Below are positions 1 to 7,206 of a DNA stretch of 11,376 bases, one piece after another. The stretch comes from Candidatus Muproteobacteria bacterium (GTDB lineage Bacteria > Pseudomonadota > Gammaproteobacteria > Acidiferrobacterales > Sulfurifustaceae): assembly GCA_023266455.1 (NCBI GenBank), contig JAHFQD010000027.1, positions 1-11,376 on the forward strand, given 5' to 3'. The notes under the pieces were generated by a model, which was given only the letters and a program-made list of their open reading frames with translations, did no database searches and was not told where the DNA came from. Each line of letters starts with the position of its first letter. Position 1 is the first letter of the stretch. The translations under genes were made by a program, and so were the position numbers.

Positions 1-142
1 CGACGATTTCAGTGAAATGCTCGTGTTCGCGCTGATGCCGGTGGTAATCGAACGCGACGAAGGTCACCGCTTCGCATAACAACACCGCGGCGAAAACCAA
101 GAGCATGGTGCGTCCGGCGAGCGTGCGTGGCGCGAGCGTCAT
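1..142 (-). CDS. Sensor histidine kinase, EnvZ-like, N-terminus only (runs off the left edge)
   Basis: Only the first 47 codons are inside the window. They begin MTLAPRTLAGRTMLLVFAAV, with a short basic stretch followed by one hydrophobic segment (about residues 12-30), then a polar, His-rich start of a periplasmic part. This is the usual N-terminus of an inner-membrane sensor kinase. The ATG overlaps the stop codon of the upstream response regulator by 4 bp (ATGA at 139-142), which implies translational coupling. The kinase identity rests mainly on this position directly behind an OmpR-type regulator, and on a resemblance to the EnvZ start (Arg-Thr-Leu before the first membrane helix). None of the catalytic domains is visible, so the signal sensed cannot be judged. 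Confidence 0.75.
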   Translation of the reverse strand, partial: MTLAPRTLAGRTMLLVFAAVLLCEAVTFVAFDYHRHQREHEHFTEIV

Positions 143-873
143 CGCGTTTTTCCTTCTGGTGAGAACACGTAGCCATGACCCCATACGGTTTGAATGAAGC
201 GCGGTTGTGCCGGATCGTGTTCGATCAATTTGCGCAGCCGATGGATTTGCACGTCGATGCTGCGATCGAACGATTCAGTCTCCGGTCCGCGCGCGAGCTC
301 CAGCAAGCGCTCGCGCGACAACGGTCGATGCGCATGACGCACCAAGGCGTGCAACAACGCGAACTCGCCGCTGGTTAAGGAAATCGTTTCGCTCCCGCGC
401 CGTAACACGCGCGCGCCGGCGTCGAATTCGAAATCGCCGAAACGAAACAGGTCCGCGAACGGTTCCGGCGTCGCCGGCGGTGTCGGCTTGCGCCGCAACA
501 CCGCTTCGATGCGTGCCACGAGTTCACGCGGGTCGAACGGTTTGCCGACGTAATCGTCGGCGCCCATTTCCAATCCGACGATGCGGTCCACCGTTTCATC
601 GCGCGCCGTCAGCATGACGATCGGAATATCGTCGCCTGCCGCGCGCAAGCGCCGGCACACGGCCAAACCGTTTTCACCCGGCAGCATGAGGTCGAGCACG
701 ATCAGATGCGGTCGACGTTTCTCGATCGCGCGATCTACGCCACGCGCATCCGGCAACAGCCGCACGTCGTAGCCCTGCTTTTCCAAATATGCCGCGATCA
801 AACGGCGCAACTCCTCGTCGTCGTCGACGACCAAGATCAGCTTGCGCGTATCGGTAGAGGGGTCGGTGTCCAT
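139..873 (-). CDS. ompR: OmpR-family response regulator (OmpR-like)
   Basis: This is a 244-residue two-domain regulator. The receiver domain (about 11-130) has the acidic pair Asp17/Asp18, phospho-acceptor Asp61 in VLDLMLPGENGL, Thr89, and Lys111 in the GKPFDPREL motif. The C-terminal winged-helix DNA-binding domain (about 143-238) has LTSGEFALL, PLSRERLLELARG, RSIDVQIHRLRKLIE and RFIQTVWGHGYVF. These blocks match E. coli OmpR more closely than CpxR or PhoB, and the length is close to OmpR (239). Once phosphorylated by its kinase it should bind tandem 10-bp half-sites and control envelope genes. The chosen ATG (873) lacks a clear Shine-Dalgarno sequence; an ATG 4 bases upstream is out of frame. 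It is followed by the kinase gene with a 4-bp overlap. A divergent Spy-like gene lies across a 138-bp gap with a candidate operator for this regulator. The family is certain; strict OmpR orthology is very likely but not proven. Confidence 0.93.
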   Translation of the reverse strand: MDTDPSTDTRKLILVVDDDEELRRLIAAYLEKQGYDVRLLPDARGVDRAIEKRRPHLIVLDLMLPGENGLAVCRRLRAAGDDIPIVMLTARDETVDRIVGLEMGADDYVGKPFDPRELVARIEAVLRRKPTPPATPEPFADLFRFGDFEFDAGARVLRRGSETISLTSGEFALLHALVRHAHRPLSRERLLELARGPETESFDRSIDVQIHRLRKLIEHDPAQPRFIQTVWGHGYVFSPEGKTR

Positions 874-1658: not shown

Positions 1659-4600
1659 TCATTCGGTTTTTTCGTCAATTATTGATTGTTGACGCTGCCG
1701 CCACAGCAAGTAGGCCGCCGGTATTACCGCGAGCGTCAGAACTGCCACGCTTAGCATTCCTCCGACCATCGGCGCCGCAATCCGCTGCATGGCTTCGGAA
1801 CCGGTTCCGGTCGTCCATAAAATCGGCAGGAGTGCGGCGATGATAGCGACCTTGGTCATGGTCACCGGTCGCACGCGCAGCAATGCACCTTCGACAATCG
1901 CTTCGCGGATATCCGCCGACGTAAGCTTGCCGCCTACTGCTTCGCTGCGGCGAAGAAGGGCTTGATCGAGATAGGCCAGCATGACCACCCCTATCTCGAC
2001 TGCCACTCCACCCAGTGCGATGAACCCAACCGCTACCGCGATGGAAAGGTTGTAGCCAAGCCAATAAAGCAACCAAAATCCGCCCACCAGCGCGAGCGGC
2101 AACGTGCCGATGATGATCAGCACTTCCATCGCGTTGCGGAAGTTGAGATACAAAAGCAGAAGGATGATCGTGAGCGTCAGTGGAATAACGAGCTTCAGCC
2201 GCTCCGTGGCGCGTTGCAGATACTCGAACTGGCCCGACCAAGCGATGGAATAGCCAGGGGGTAGTTTTACTTTTTCGGTTACTGCGCGCTGCGCATCAGC
2301 AACGTACGAGCCGATGTCGCGTCCAGTGAAATCTATATAGATCCATCCCGAGAGCCTGGCATTCTCAGAGCGGATCATGTCGGGGCCGTCGATGATGCGC
2401 ACGTCCGCCATCTGGGAAAGTGCGATCTGTGTGCCGATGGGTGTCAGGAGTGGCAACAGCTTCACGCGTTCGAGCGAGTCGCGCAAATCTTGCGGGAAGC
2501 GAATGTTGATTGGGTAGCGTTCCCGACCTTCCACGGTTTCGCTCACATTCATACCGCCGAGGCCGCTGGTAATCGTGTCCTGCACATCGGCAATGCTGAG
2601 ACCGAAGCGCGCGGCGCGTTCACGGTCGATGTGAACGTCTACATAGCGTGCACCGGCGACACGCTCGGCGTAAACCGACGTCGTCCCCTTTACTTCGCGA
2701 ATAGCAGCTTCGATTTCCCGTCCTACTCGCTCGATAGTCGTGAGGTCCGGACCTGTCAGTTTGACACCCACCGGTGTACGGATGCCGGTCGTGAGCATGT
2801 CGATGCGAGTTTTGATCGGCATCACGAATACATTCGAGAGTCCGGGAAACTTGGTCGCCTCGTTCATTTCAGCGATGAGTTTCTGTGTTGTCATCCCCGG
2901 TCGCCATTCTGACTTGGGTTTTAACTGCACAGTGGTCTCGAACATAGTGAGTGGCGCGGGATCGGTCGCGGTTTCGGCACGGCCGACCTTGCCGAAAACG
3001 CTCTGCACTTCAGGAAACGTTTTCAGGATACGGTCGGTCTGCTGCAGCACCTGCTGCGCTTTGCCGGCCGACAATCCCGGCAATGTAGTCGGCATATAGA
3101 GCAGATCGCCTTCGTCCATGTCCGGCATGAACTCGGTCCCCAGTTTCGTCAGCGGATAGATACTGACCACGATTAGCACGGTGGCGCCCCACAGCACCGC
3201 CTTCGGATGCGTTAGCACCCAGTTGAGCAGCGGCCGATAACTCGCGATGAGCCAACGATTGAGCGGGTTCTGCTGTTCCGAGCGAATTTTTCCGCGGATG
3301 AAATAGCCCATCAGCACTGGCACCAGCGTGATGGAAAGTCCCGCCGCCGCGGCCATGGCGAAGGTCTTGGTAAAGGCGAGCGGTGAGAACAACCGACCTT
3401 CCTGCGCTTCCAGCGCAAACACTGGAAGAAAGCTCACCGTAATAATTAGCAACGAGAAGAACAGCGGCGCCCCGAGCTCGGTCGCCGCCCGGCGCACGAG
3501 CTCCCAGCGATTCGCTTCGGTAAGCGACGGATGCTCCAGATGCTTGTGCGCATTCTCGATCATGACGATCGCCGCATCGACCATGGCGCCGATGGCGATC
3601 GCGATGCCTCCCAAGGACATGATGTTGGCGTTGATGCCTTGGTGTTTCATCACGATGAAGCTGATGAGGATACCGATCGGCAGGGTAAGAATCGCCACCA
3701 GCGAAGATCGCAGATGAAACAAAAACGCGACGCACACCAAGGCAACGACGATGAACTCTTCGATCAACGTATGCGTGAGATTGCCAACCGCGCGCTCGAT
3801 CAGCGATGAGCGATCATAAGTCGTTACGATCTCAACGCCTTCCGGCAGGCTGCGCTTGAGCGCCTCTAGTTTTTGCTTGACGCCATAGATGGTCGTCTGC
3901 GCATTCTCGCCTTGACGCATGACGATGATGCCGCCCGCGACTTCCCCCTCGCCGTTCAGATCGGTAATGCCCCGGCGCATCTCTGGGCCAAGGCGGATCT
4001 CCGCCACCTGGTCCATGCGAATCGGTGCACCGGACGGTCCGACGCCGAGAGATATTTGACGCAGATCGTCGAGCGAACGCAGGTAACCGCGCGCGCGGAC
4101 CATGTACTCGGCTTCCGCCATTTCGATCACCGAACCGCCGGTTTCCTGGTTAGCGTTTTCGATGGCCTTGCGTACGTCGCTCAGCATCAGTCGGTAAGCG
4201 CGCAACTTGGCGGGATCAACCACAACTTGGTATTGCCGCACCATACCGCCAACCGAGGCGACCTCGGCTACGCCGGATACCGTGCGCAATTCGTACTTGA
4301 GAAACCAATCCTGCAACGAACGCAGCTGCGAGATGTCGTGCTTGCCGGTGCGATCGATCAACGCATACTCGAACACCCAACCCACGCCGGTCGCATCCGG
4401 CCCGAGCGCCGGGCGTGCACCCCGCGGGAGTCGCGGCAACACCTGCGACAGATACTCCAGTACCCGCGAGCGTGCCCAATACGGATCGGTGCCGTCTTTG
4501 AACAGGACGTAAACAAATGAATCGCCGAACTGCGAGAAGCCGCGCACCGTTGCCGCACCCGGCACCGACAGCATCGCGGTGGTGAGCGGATATGTCACCT

Positions 4601-4790
4601 GATCTTCGACGACTTGTGGTGCTTGGCCCGGGTAACTCGTCTGAATGATGACCTGCACATCGGAGAGATCCGGTATCGCATCGAGCGGCGTGTGTTTGAA
4701 CGAATACAGCCCGAGCGCAACCAGAAAGCCTGTCACAAGCAGGACCAGGAAGCGGTTATTGATGGACCAACGGATGATGGCAGATATCAT
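1659..4790 (-). CDS. cusA: CusA-type heavy-metal RND efflux pump, Cu(I)/Ag(I) class
   Basis: This is the 1043-residue inner-membrane proton/metal antiporter of a tripartite efflux complex, full length for the family. The first membrane helix spans about 12-30 and is followed by porter segments beginning [20 protein letters not shown]. The membrane motif [23 protein letters not shown] includes Asp405 of the proton relay, with a second acidic residue at Glu932. The three cleft methionines that bind Cu(I)/Ag(I) in E. coli CusA (573, 623, 672) have counterparts here at Met566 (LLYMP), Met616 (PLTMFETT) and Met665 (RIDMLTTG). This separates it from CzcA-type Zn/Co/Cd pumps. It is the last gene of the operon. 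AGGAAG lies 7 bases before the ATG, and an 81-bp gap with a repeat hairpin separates it from the adaptor gene. The expected role is export of monovalent copper or silver from periplasm and cytoplasm through the outer-membrane factor. Confidence 0.95.
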
Positions 4791-4808
4791 GAGTTCACTT
4801 CCTACTCC

Positions 4809-4834
4809 CCCTCTCTCGCATCAGCGGGAGAGGG
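4809..4834. repeat. REP-like GC-rich hairpin in the cusB-cusA gap
   Basis: CCCTCTCTCGC and GCGGGAGAGGG form an 11-bp stem with one G-T pair around a 4-base loop. On the minus strand it is preceded by CTCCCTCACCCC. The CCCTCACCC ... CCCTCTCCCGC pattern is that of dispersed extragenic palindromes found in many proteobacterial genomes. Its place inside the operon, upstream of the cusA ribosome binding site, means it is transcribed. It could stabilise the upstream mRNA or lower read-through into cusA. Confidence 0.6.
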
Positions 4835-4871
4835 CAAGGGGTGAGGGAGGAGACAACGACGTTGTCGACGA

Positions 4872-5468
4872 TCACGGTTTCTTCTCGCTCTCAGTGGACG
4901 ATTCCATGCGTTTGAAACTCGCGCGCGTGCTCGCCTCGGAATCAATAAGAAACTGACCGGACACAACAACCTTGTCGCCCTCCTTGAGCCCCTTCTTAAT
5001 CTCGATGTCATCGCCGACCTCGGCGCTCGCCACAACATCCGCTGGCTGGAAACGCCCTTCGCCAAGCGCCATGACCACACTCGTTCGAGTGCCCGTACGA
5101 ATCAATGCCTCTCGGGGAATTAGCAGTCCGGTTTTTCCGCGTTTAACGGGCGCGGTACGGACGCCAAGACTGTTCGTTATCTCGGGACGCACCCTCACGA
5201 TCGGTGGACTGCCCACGGTGTTGCCGGCTTCGTCTTCGTACACCGGCACCAGCTCCATATCCATGAATGGCGATTTGCCCAGTTTGTCGAACTTCGGGCC
5301 GGGCACCATCGGGTCGTGCCAATAAAGTACTTTCCGTTCTGACGTAGTTCCCGACGCCGTGACATCGGTCTTGTTCGAGTGTTTACCGACGGACCATCCG
5401 AGACCGAAGGTGATTGCCAGTACAGCGACGACGGCAACAAGCAACAAGAATCGTGTTGGGCGTTTCAT
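4872..5468 (-). CDS. Internally deleted CusB-like periplasmic adaptor (mini-CusB)
   Basis: The protein has 198 residues, against about 407 in E. coli CusB. Residues 1-28 are an N-terminal membrane anchor or signal. Residues 45-77 form the heavy-metal binding domain (YWHDPMVPGPKFD, SPFMDMELVPVY), with Met54, Met69 and Met71 matching the CusB metal ligands. Residues 90-111 match the following CusB strand (NLGVKTATVTRG there, SLGVRTAPVKRG here). The next residues, LLIPREALIRTG through QFLIDSEASTRASFKRM (115-188), already match the extreme C-terminal membrane-proximal part of CusB. About 200 residues are absent: most of the beta-barrel, the lipoyl domain and the whole alpha-hairpin that meets the TolC partner. 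The junction lies near residues 109-114 (about 5127-5144). The frame is intact. The gene overlaps the upstream TolC-like gene by 4 bp (ATGA). It could be a functional small metal-transfer protein feeding CusA, or a pump part disabled by deletion. Confidence 0.88.
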   Translation of the reverse strand: MKRPTRFLLLVAVVAVLAITFGLGWSVGKHSNKTDVTASGTTSERKVLYWHDPMVPGPKFDKLGKSPFMDMELVPVYEDEAGNTVGSPPIVRVRPEITNSLGVRTAPVKRGKTGLLIPREALIRTGTRTSVVMALGEGRFQPADVVASAEVGDDIEIKKGLKEGDKVVVSGQFLIDSEASTRASFKRMESSTESEKKP

Positions 5469-6712
5469 GACTGCGGCTCCCCGGTCAGGTACAACAGTTC
5501 GGCGTGGCTCTTGGCGAGATCGGCGCGCAAACGAATCAGGTCAAGCTCGGCATCGAGTGCCCGCATTTGCGCTTCACGTATTTCATTGGCATCGCGCGCG
5601 CCACCGGCGGCTGTGGCCTTTGCTTCGGCCCGCGCGCTCGGCAAGAGTTGCTCTTCAGCTACACGCGCTCGCGCTTTCAACGCGTTGTATTCCGCAAGCA
5701 CCGCGCGGTACATCGATTCCAAATCTCGGCGCATATCGTCGGCTTCAAAACCTGCCGCCGTTTCGAGGGACTGCTTCTCCGTCAGGCGCCGGTCCTGGCG
5801 TTTGTTGCGAAAGATCGGCAAATCAAACGTGACGACGGCACTCACCATGTTGGAACGCTGCATGCCGCTCGGTGCGTTTTGACGCACGCCGTAGGTGAGA
5901 TCGAACATCATGCCGGGCTTGTACTGCTGACGGGCGATATCGACCTCGGCCTGTGCTACTTCACGCCCAGCCTGTGCCGCCAACCAGGTCGGATGGCGTG
6001 CGACATCGAAGTCGGTAGCGAGCAGCGGCAGTATCGGTGGCTCGGGTGGCAAAGGATCGTTCGCGGCATCCCCGAGCCACCGTCCCAACTGTGCGCGCAG
6101 GCCACTCGCCTGCGCCTTCAACATCAGGAGTCGGTCGTCGAGTCGAGCCAATTCCTGCCGCGCGCGCATCACCGCGCGCTGCGGCTCTTGGGCGGCGCGA
6201 TACCGGCCTTCGGCGGCCGCCAATGCACGCGACTGAAGCGCGCGGGACTCTTCGACCAAGTGTACCGACTGCTCCTGTACATAAAGGTCGAGCCAGAGTT
6301 GACGAACCTTCTTAATTAACATCCGACGCTCAATCTCAAGCTTGGCCTCTTCGCGCGAGACGTCCTTTTGTGCACGGCGCTCTTTTAAAGCGAGCGTATC
6401 GCCAGGTGGAAAGCTCTGACGGATGCCGATCATCTGCATCGTCATGTCGTCCTGGCGCGTGCTGAACGAATCGGTCGGCACATTGACCACCCCGATCATG
6501 AGCTGCGGATCGGGCAGACGGCTCTCGTAGACGGCGCGCTCAGAGGCGGCGGTCACGTTGGTGCGGTGATGTGACAACAACGGCGCGTTGGCGAGGGCGA
6601 GCTGTTCCGCCCGCGCGAGCGTCAATGTTTCACCGGCGATGACCGACGGCGAAACAGAGAACAGAATGAACAATAAACTTCCCGTTAGGGAAAAACGAGG
6701 TAACGCAGGCAT
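5465..6712 (-). CDS. TolC/CusC-family outer-membrane efflux factor
   Basis: The protein has 415 residues. Residues 1-26 form a Sec signal peptide (LLFILFSVSPSVIA, cleavage before GE). It then follows the outer-membrane efflux protein pattern, with an opening TLARAEQLALANAPLL, alternating long helical stretches and outer-membrane strands, and a C-terminal helix with AELLYLTG. Such proteins form trimeric channels through the outer membrane and a tunnel across the periplasm. Unlike E. coli CusC it has no lipobox and no cysteine anywhere, so it is not a lipoprotein. A strong GGAAGGAGG lies close upstream of the ATG (6716-6725). It overlaps the adaptor gene by 4 bp and sits in the order C-B-A, typical of metal RND operons. 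The partner assignment to the CusA-type pump comes from this context. Confidence 0.9.
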   Translation of the reverse strand: MPALPRFSLTGSLLFILFSVSPSVIAGETLTLARAEQLALANAPLLSHHRTNVTAASERAVYESRLPDPQLMIGVVNVPTDSFSTRQDDMTMQMIGIRQSFPPGDTLALKERRAQKDVSREEAKLEIERRMLIKKVRQLWLDLYVQEQSVHLVEESRALQSRALAAAEGRYRAAQEPQRAVMRARQELARLDDRLLMLKAQASGLRAQLGRWLGDAANDPLPPEPPILPLLATDFDVARHPTWLAAQAGREVAQAEVDIARQQYKPGMMFDLTYGVRQNAPSGMQRSNMVSAVVTFDLPIFRNKRQDRRLTEKQSLETAAGFEADDMRRDLESMYRAVLAEYNALKARARVAEEQLLPSARAEAKATAAGGARDANEIREAQMRALDAELDLIRLRADLAKSHAELLYLTGEPQS

Positions 6713-6757: not shown

Positions 6758-7123
6758 TTAATTCAGCAGCGCGAGATGGGTGAGATAAAGCGGTACAGAC
6801 GGTGGGTGTGTTGCTCGCCAATCTGCTGACAGTGCCCGTGCAGACTGTGCGATGACTAACTCGATGGGCAAAGTGGTCAGCACCACCGGCGTTACCGAAA
6901 AATCGAATGCGGGAACGTTGAGAATATTGAGCGATGGCAGTTCGCAAGGGGCGGCGGCCTGCTCGCACGGCATCGTCATTTCATGCGACGGGTCTGTCTT
7001 TGTGCACGGCGAATTACATGGAAGCTGCGCTGCAGCGCAGGTACCGACAAGCCACAGCCCAGCCAGCGCCGCGATCAGTGCGGTCGAGATGGAACGGAGG
7101 TGTTTACGGAGCCAGTGACGCAT
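6758..7123 (-). CDS. Small Cys-rich exported protein heading the efflux operon, CopL/CzcI-like
   Basis: The protein has 121 residues from the ATG at 7123. A TTG three codons upstream (7132) is possible but less likely. The start MRHWLRKHLRSISTALIAAL and the following hydrophobic run to CAAA are a Sec signal peptide. The mature part begins with a short Cys/Met/His stretch (LPCNSPCTKTDPSHEMTMPCE and one further Cys) and ends in a hydrophobic, Pro-rich tail (PPSVPLYLTHLALLN). Small exported proteins of this design often precede copA, czcC or cusC genes (CopL, CzcI and similar) and are thought to bind metal or tune expression. No catalytic motif is seen. It lies 45 bp upstream of the TolC-like gene on the same strand, so it is probably the first gene of the operon. 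No good ribosome binding site is visible. A family name cannot be fixed from the sequence alone. Confidence 0.65.
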   Translation of the reverse strand: MRHWLRKHLRSISTALIAALAGLWLVGTCAAAQLPCNSPCTKTDPSHEMTMPCEQAAAPCELPSLNILNVPAFDFSVTPVVLTTLPIELVIAQSARALSADWRATHPPSVPLYLTHLALLN

Positions 7124-7206
7124 GTTCGCCAATAGTATAGCAATGGGATAACTGCGGCCGACATCAACAATCCGCTTAACGTGGCTGCCACTGGGAGTTT
7201 ACTGTT

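Follow-up and report, generated by a model that had tools for sequence, protein, structure and literature searches.

A recurrent short CusB-type adaptor, reduced to HMBD and MPD, in a cusA operon of Candidatus Muproteobacteria

Known adaptors and the short adaptor gene

In tip-to-tip models the hairpins of the adaptor make a sealed channel to TolC-like factors, and CusB, the adaptor of the E. coli CusCFBA system, has a beta-barrel, a lipoyl domain and a folded hairpin as well as a metal-binding domain (HMBD), with Met49, Met64 and Met66, and an MPD. CusF carries Cu(I)/Ag(I) in the periplasm and works together with CusB and CusA. The tip of TolC is described as being bound by the hairpin tips of the adaptor (PMC3391258), and CusB as contacting CusA via its MP and barrel domains, with one CusB molecule doing so mainly via salt bridges (PMC4338810).

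The nearest precedent for what is described here is BesA of Borrelia burgdorferi, a natural hairpin-less RND adaptor that is mentioned in reviews as an exception (PMC4446572, PMC8277102, PMC4338810). In the BesA report the lipoyl domain is credited with holding the exit duct, the authors argue for direct contact between permease and outer-membrane factor and state that they found no other adaptor able to do the job of BesA, and hairpin-less adaptor sequences are noted from spirochaetes and, as rare cases, from proteobacteria, Legionella among them (PMC3807786).

A further comparison is offered by structure 5a4g, by its PDB title a 180-residue construct, which holds the N-terminal metal site and the MPD of SilB in one chain. 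It presumably derives from the adaptor encoded in the sil cluster of pMOL30, a gene of 521 aa. No natural CusB reduced in such a way, and no hairpinless copper-pump class, was found described in the open literature searched, which takes in few of the subscription papers.

The window, the whole stretch of 11,376 nucleotides of a Candidatus Muproteobacteria contig (JAHFQD010000027.1) that was analysed, carries an adaptor gene of this kind (its product is called P0001 below) between genes for an outer-membrane factor (OEP) and CusA. Its features are as follows.

1659..4790, minus strand: CusA, an HME-RND permease, 1043 aa, intact (TIGR00914, 1319 bits against a cut-off of 701)
4872..5468, minus strand: short CusB-type adaptor (HMBD and MPD), 198 aa, ATG start, P0001
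4899..5126, minus strand: C-side of the MPD, residues 115-190, including D176, E178 and R187 (alignments)
5127..5135, minus strand: junction, residues 112-114, the point at which barrel, lipoyl domain and hairpin are missing (alignments)
5136..5204, minus strand: N-side strands of the MPD, residues 89-111
5235..5339, minus strand: HMBD, residues ~44-78, with Met54, Met69 and Met71 (PF19335, 23.9 bits against a gathering threshold of 23.6)
5394..5456, minus strand: hydrophobic N-terminal helix, residues 5-25, a candidate signal or anchor (predicted helix)
5465..6712, minus strand: OEP/TolC-like outer-membrane factor, 415 aa (PF02321)
5558..5605, minus strand: remodelled second periplasmic tip of the OEP, GGARDANEIREA in the window and GFAR[DE]Q.E.R-like in relatives (OEP alignments)
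6758..7132, minus strand: small Cys-rich protein with a hydrophobic N-terminus, 5' of the OEP (sequence)

The match of P0001 to E. coli CusB splits in two (phmmer, PDB), with CusB residues 34-104 corresponding to query 39-113 and residues 324-402 to query 114-192; therefore ~219 CusB residues are absent, where the original prediction had given roughly 200 for the missing middle. In the alignment to CusB the beta-barrel is absent, as are the lipoyl domain and the alpha-hairpin, and the match from residue 115 onward to the end of CusB held as predicted. The three methionines 54, 69 and 71, put forward as metal ligands, do align with CusB Met49, Met64 and Met66, and the HMBD that carries them scores above gathering. 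The first ~111 residues had been assigned as a whole to the metal-binding domain, which is right for ~44-78, whereas 89-111 are strands of the MPD; together with 115-190 these make the MPD complete, and so the CusA-docking domain has not been lost.

P0001 lies below the curated NCBIfam cut-offs for CusB (NF007303, 134.9 of 390 bits) and for TIGR01730 (38 of 94.9 bits). Its top match in the PDB is 5a4g (E 1.6e-46 by phmmer, 1.6e-8 by Foldseek), and since this is a SilB construct of the same two parts the architecture is not a matter of chance, with the difference that the short form is a natural gene. In the predicted structure of P0001 the HMBD is given at low confidence. Like BesA, P0001 is natural and hairpin-less, but BesA keeps the rest of the adaptor, including lipoyl domain and barrel, and P0001 has neither; BesA itself is not known to have an HMBD.

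As expected for a CusB, P0001 is encoded in an operon with an OEP and an HME-RND permease, and the frame is open, with its 4-bp overlap with the TolC-like gene (5465-5468) present. The description of an otherwise complete efflux operon stands for the OEP and CusA, which are intact, and fails for cusF, which is not within the operon. The CusF family (PF11604) was not found in the window's draft genome, and P0001 is itself of another family, with no PF11604 match at E<=0.001. No CusF gene of this family was found in three related genomes (G407, G411, G414); one was found in G405, two in G416, and a CusF-like gene lies inside the mid-form locus of G402 (an adaptor form described below), so CusF may serve some of the pumps of the class described below. 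The Cys-rich protein has no Pfam family at E<=1, a relative of it precedes the OEP in 8 of the 12 distinct hairpinless loci read, and it is a possible metal carrier.

A number of further observations were made around these genes. The stop of the adaptor gene and the start of cusA are 81 nt apart, and a GC-rich inverted repeat can be made out there by eye (4808-4847); its right-hand part is found a single time in the draft genome when <=2 mismatches are allowed. Downstream of cusA a Metal_resist gene (PF13801; 1012-1500, plus strand) and a response-regulator gene (139-873, minus strand) are divergent, possibly providing metal-sensing control of cusA. In the mid-form operon of another genome (G399; L011:10919-18835, the same place as L127) opposite-strand ORFs separate two pieces of cusA, as an insertion into the gene would produce, and in L135 cusA is split over two overlapping frames. 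A split adaptor with its middle encoded nearby was considered, and comparison of downstream ORFs with a small reference set brought up no such gene in the window or in the loci of the family.

Recurrence and order of the losses

A search of 5.8 billion proteins gave 1603 relatives, the best 120 of which were used; since this search admits only proteins of 0.55-1.75 times the query length, full-length CusB cannot show up in it. Among these best 120, 49 fall below 250 aa and 71 measure 250-324 aa, and a search with the junction only (residues 88-145) listed 79 matches, of which 48 were new proteins and 6 of these short. In the 168 relatives listed the spacing between the HMBD motif and LIDSE falls into two classes, being 95-112 residues in all 55 short proteins (<250 aa), three of which, without the usual N-terminal stretch, are possibly fragments, and 191-252 residues in 109 of the 113 longer ones, with four not measured. 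The junction is 0-3 residues longer than that of P0001 in the 34 relatives compared. The longer proteins, here called mid forms, retain the beta-barrel and are without lipoyl domain and hairpin, and the predicted structure of one of them (mean pLDDT 77.6) matches both CusB and BesA. It is apparent that P0001 is the extreme member of a hairpinless adaptor class.

The original prediction had proposed a search for proteins of about 200 residues with the same junction, and had allowed for a recent deletion. Such proteins exist, and because 55 of the 168 listed relatives have the same short spacing P0001 is no private deletion; the usual form in its family is moreover already without hairpin and lipoyl domain.

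No other genome matched at E<=1e-30 in a phylum sample of 397; a class sample of 368 other genomes gave at 1e-35 two matches, both mid forms; and 16 of 56 other genomes matched in an order sample at 1e-35, among which no short form was seen (the match in G398 runs into a contig end). Eight viral contigs matched the search pattern, with no relative among these, and 3211 plasmid records matched, with no short form in 60 spread rows, two records of 60-80% identity being left out. A scan of genome contigs gave at least 80 loci, mostly full-length.

A FastTree tree and a quick tree of 96 rows were used, the latter drawn from 231 deduplicated rows over 147 columns with the barrel excluded, after one mid row had been removed for coverage and identical rows collapsed. 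Short and mid forms are split from full-length CusB at SH-aLRT 99 in the 96-row tree. On the same tree the label 'short' changes 8 times, of which well-supported branches alone force one. A single clade of all 23 short rows is rejected (p-AU 0.00123, 68 rows), and thus the barrel would have been lost at least twice; as pairs of short groups are not rejected as clades (p-AU 0.364, 0.309 and 0.289), two origins are a minimum, with more unproven. The order that we infer runs from full to mid to short, with lipoyl domain and hairpin probably lost first and the beta-barrel afterwards.

Conserved residues and the partner proteins

Met54, Met69, Met71, R104, D176 and R187 are identical in all 50 distinct short rows and all 118 mid rows, although in the rows derived from loci (8 mids and all full rows but that of E. 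coli), which were chosen by a motif filter, the methionines and D176 are so partly by construction. E178 is found in 48 of 50 short and 115 of 118 mid rows, with D in the remainder. Over the 118 mid rows P0001 is as similar to the mids as these are to each other in the HMBD (0.834 against 0.834), with 0.681 against 0.700 in the MPD.

We take CusB K95, D386, E388 and R397, the residue types of which were checked in K-12, and their partners in CusA to be the contacts in the CusBA structure, and D176, E178 and R187 of P0001 to be the equivalents of CusA contacts of CusB. Of the four salt-bridge partners the window's CusA keeps R771 and R777, with D155 replaced by Q and E584 by K. Of 13 methionine positions of E. 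coli CusA that were checked it keeps 11, including 573, 623 and 672, with M755 and M792 not kept. An insertion in CusA compensating for the missing adaptor parts was looked for, and the sole changes seen were a 7-residue deletion after 420 and a gain of ~3 residues near 952, neither being tied to the docking domain; the deletion at ~420 is class-specific relative to full-type CusA.

The outer-membrane factor is changed far more. Identity to the window's OEP is 51.5-59.5% beside mid adaptors and 23.6-32.8% beside full-length ones (71 of 76 loci having an OEP), a comparison that excludes two of the 15 rows labelled mid (L024, where the frame ends without LIDSE, OEP 27%, and L054, at a contig end, OEP 30%) and in which L127 and L128 duplicate L011 and L012 and L026 (OEP 55.8%) is truncated where its contig stops. 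OEPs of the two types share 26% identity, with ~60% within the class and 31% within the full type; CusA is much less divergent, at 60% between types and 70-76% within.

The difference extends to the second periplasmic tip, which we take to be H7/H8 by TolC naming. It has 44 residues in the class, with a GFAR[DE]-type motif in all 12 distinct class OEPs (GGARD in the window), these being the OEPs of mid-form operons and of the window's operon. Among 75 other OEPs, including CusC and TolC, two gave no tip residues and 73 have 46-47; 68 of the tips fit Y..[GNS]...[hydrophobic], and the class motif is in none of the 73. Four more OEPs accompanying full-length adaptors, including that of the top-ranked plasmid relative (35%, on a Legionella plasmid), have 47 residues. 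The class tip is three residues shorter, with the position of the gap varying by alignment and six loci without a complete adaptor by the filter being skipped. Because the class is one clade the change of the tip is one event, and judged from these alignments the outer-membrane partner of the hairpinless class is a distinct subtype, a point that the original prediction had not noticed.

A longer OEP filling the gap was also considered; class OEPs are of 406-415 aa against 408-457 in 17 of 21 of the full type (four being shorter as extracted), and so no extra length is present.

Readings of the short adaptor and their meaning

On the evidence of sequence P0001 is real, recurrent and not visibly decayed, and it looks like a real pump design and not a broken gene. 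We consider it reasonably probable that it is a genuine and selected minimal CusB, a clamp that loads CusA with Cu(I)/Ag(I) and activates it in a pump lacking the adaptor-hairpin tunnel. P0001 would be periplasmic and probably membrane-held, with its Met3 Cu(I)/Ag(I) site carried on a complete MPD by which it would dock on CusA, either passing metal to CusA or switching the pump on; a metal site fused to a docking domain could do both jobs without a tunnel. The first suggestion, that such a protein is unable to link up with the outer-membrane channel as known adaptors do, is supported, and a metal-loading role on CusA would fit the retained HMBD, methionine ligands and MPD.

It has been proposed that another adaptor makes the bridge, i.e. 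that P0001 is a metal loader only and a separate full-length adaptor elsewhere in the genome links CusA to the OEP. Other adaptors do exist in the window's genome (77% complete, 474 contigs, with one CusA-type permease above cut-off); C67 adjoins an RND permease below the CusA/CzcA cut-off, C103 adjoins MacB, C92 and C311 are further adaptors, and HlyD/M50-type genes adjoin some of the others. Near-complete relatives likewise carry adaptors for other pumps, G416 even having full-length ones beside two CusA-type permeases. Against this, a search of the window's draft with P0001 found itself alone, so that the proposed search for a second adaptor gave no further relative, whilst adaptors of other types were present. 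Of the 20 genomes of the window's GTDB family 17 match at E<=1e-15, and by reading frames and half spacing 14 have a mid form of ~270-310 aa (G400 has full length only, G401 both mid and full, and the locus of G398 is incomplete). In G407 (99% complete, one contig), the adaptor of which is identical to Sulfuricaulis limicola protein P0072, the mid form is the sole match at E<=1e-15. The order OEP - adaptor - CusA is seen in family loci where the neighbourhood is readable, with no second CusB-like adaptor recognised in the family operons read, and in five relatives the TIGR01730 adaptors (E<=1e-10) other than the mid form all lie outside the operon, the closest at a distance of ~9 kb on the other strand (G405). 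The OEP tip, the site of hairpin engagement, is also altered in the class. The bridging adaptor has therefore found no positive support, and we regard it as unlikely.

A different kind of small adaptor was seen in three of these relatives (G407, G416 and G405), in which a lipoprotein-like adaptor of ~225-250 aa precedes a different RND permease (L147:7754-8611, L148:7099-7785, L149:6723-7466). These apparently have barrel and MPD only and are perhaps a second hairpinless adaptor type.

It could also be that the pump has two parts, with CusA and P0001 moving metal within the envelope and the OEP vestigial or serving another system. No bridge is visible, and the OEP of 415 aa is not longer than others. 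Yet the OEP is intact and overlaps the adaptor gene by 4 bp, its gene is next to that of the adaptor in every locus readable on that side, and it is about twice as conserved within the class as among full-type loci, all of which makes an idle OEP quite doubtful.

Decay, or a recent in-frame deletion, might be suspected as P0001 is the sole barrel-less copy among the 20 family genomes and is slightly less similar to 8 family mids than they are among themselves (HMBD 0.800 against 0.852, MPD 0.652 against 0.693). However, eight related short forms, 67-76% identical, share its spacing and ligands, and P0001-P0009 are compatible with a single clade and thus one origin (p-AU 0.598), so that decay is very improbable. 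Collapse in the assembly, a fragmented draft, can hardly be entertained given the same short spacing on other contigs, including those of 209 kb (P0002) and 479 kb (P0004).

Returning to the minimal clamp without a hairpin tunnel, the route of the metal to the OEP would have to be a different one. Our preferred guess is direct contact between CusA and OEP, as argued for the BesA pump, with the changed-tip OEP probably contacting CusA, or an adaptor ring on CusA, differently and more directly. We tentatively suggest, as a possibility that may well need revision, that some tripartite pumps for Cu(I)/Ag(I) form a class without any adaptor tunnel, in which the OEP with its rebuilt tip docks directly on CusA. 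The adaptor of this class would have been reduced stepwise, from full length to barrel and MPD and then to the MPD alone, until it was a clamp that loads metal and activates the pump.

In this class a metal pump has been deprived of hairpin and lipoyl domain, and at least two times of the barrel, and the tip of its OEP shows a corresponding change. With it one could ask directly whether an RND pump can function with its outer-membrane factor when there is no adaptor tunnel, and it is a minimal system supplied by nature for examining how metal is loaded and the pump docked independently of bridging. If this reading is true, the metal-loading and docking job of adaptors would have been separated from their bridging job in nature.
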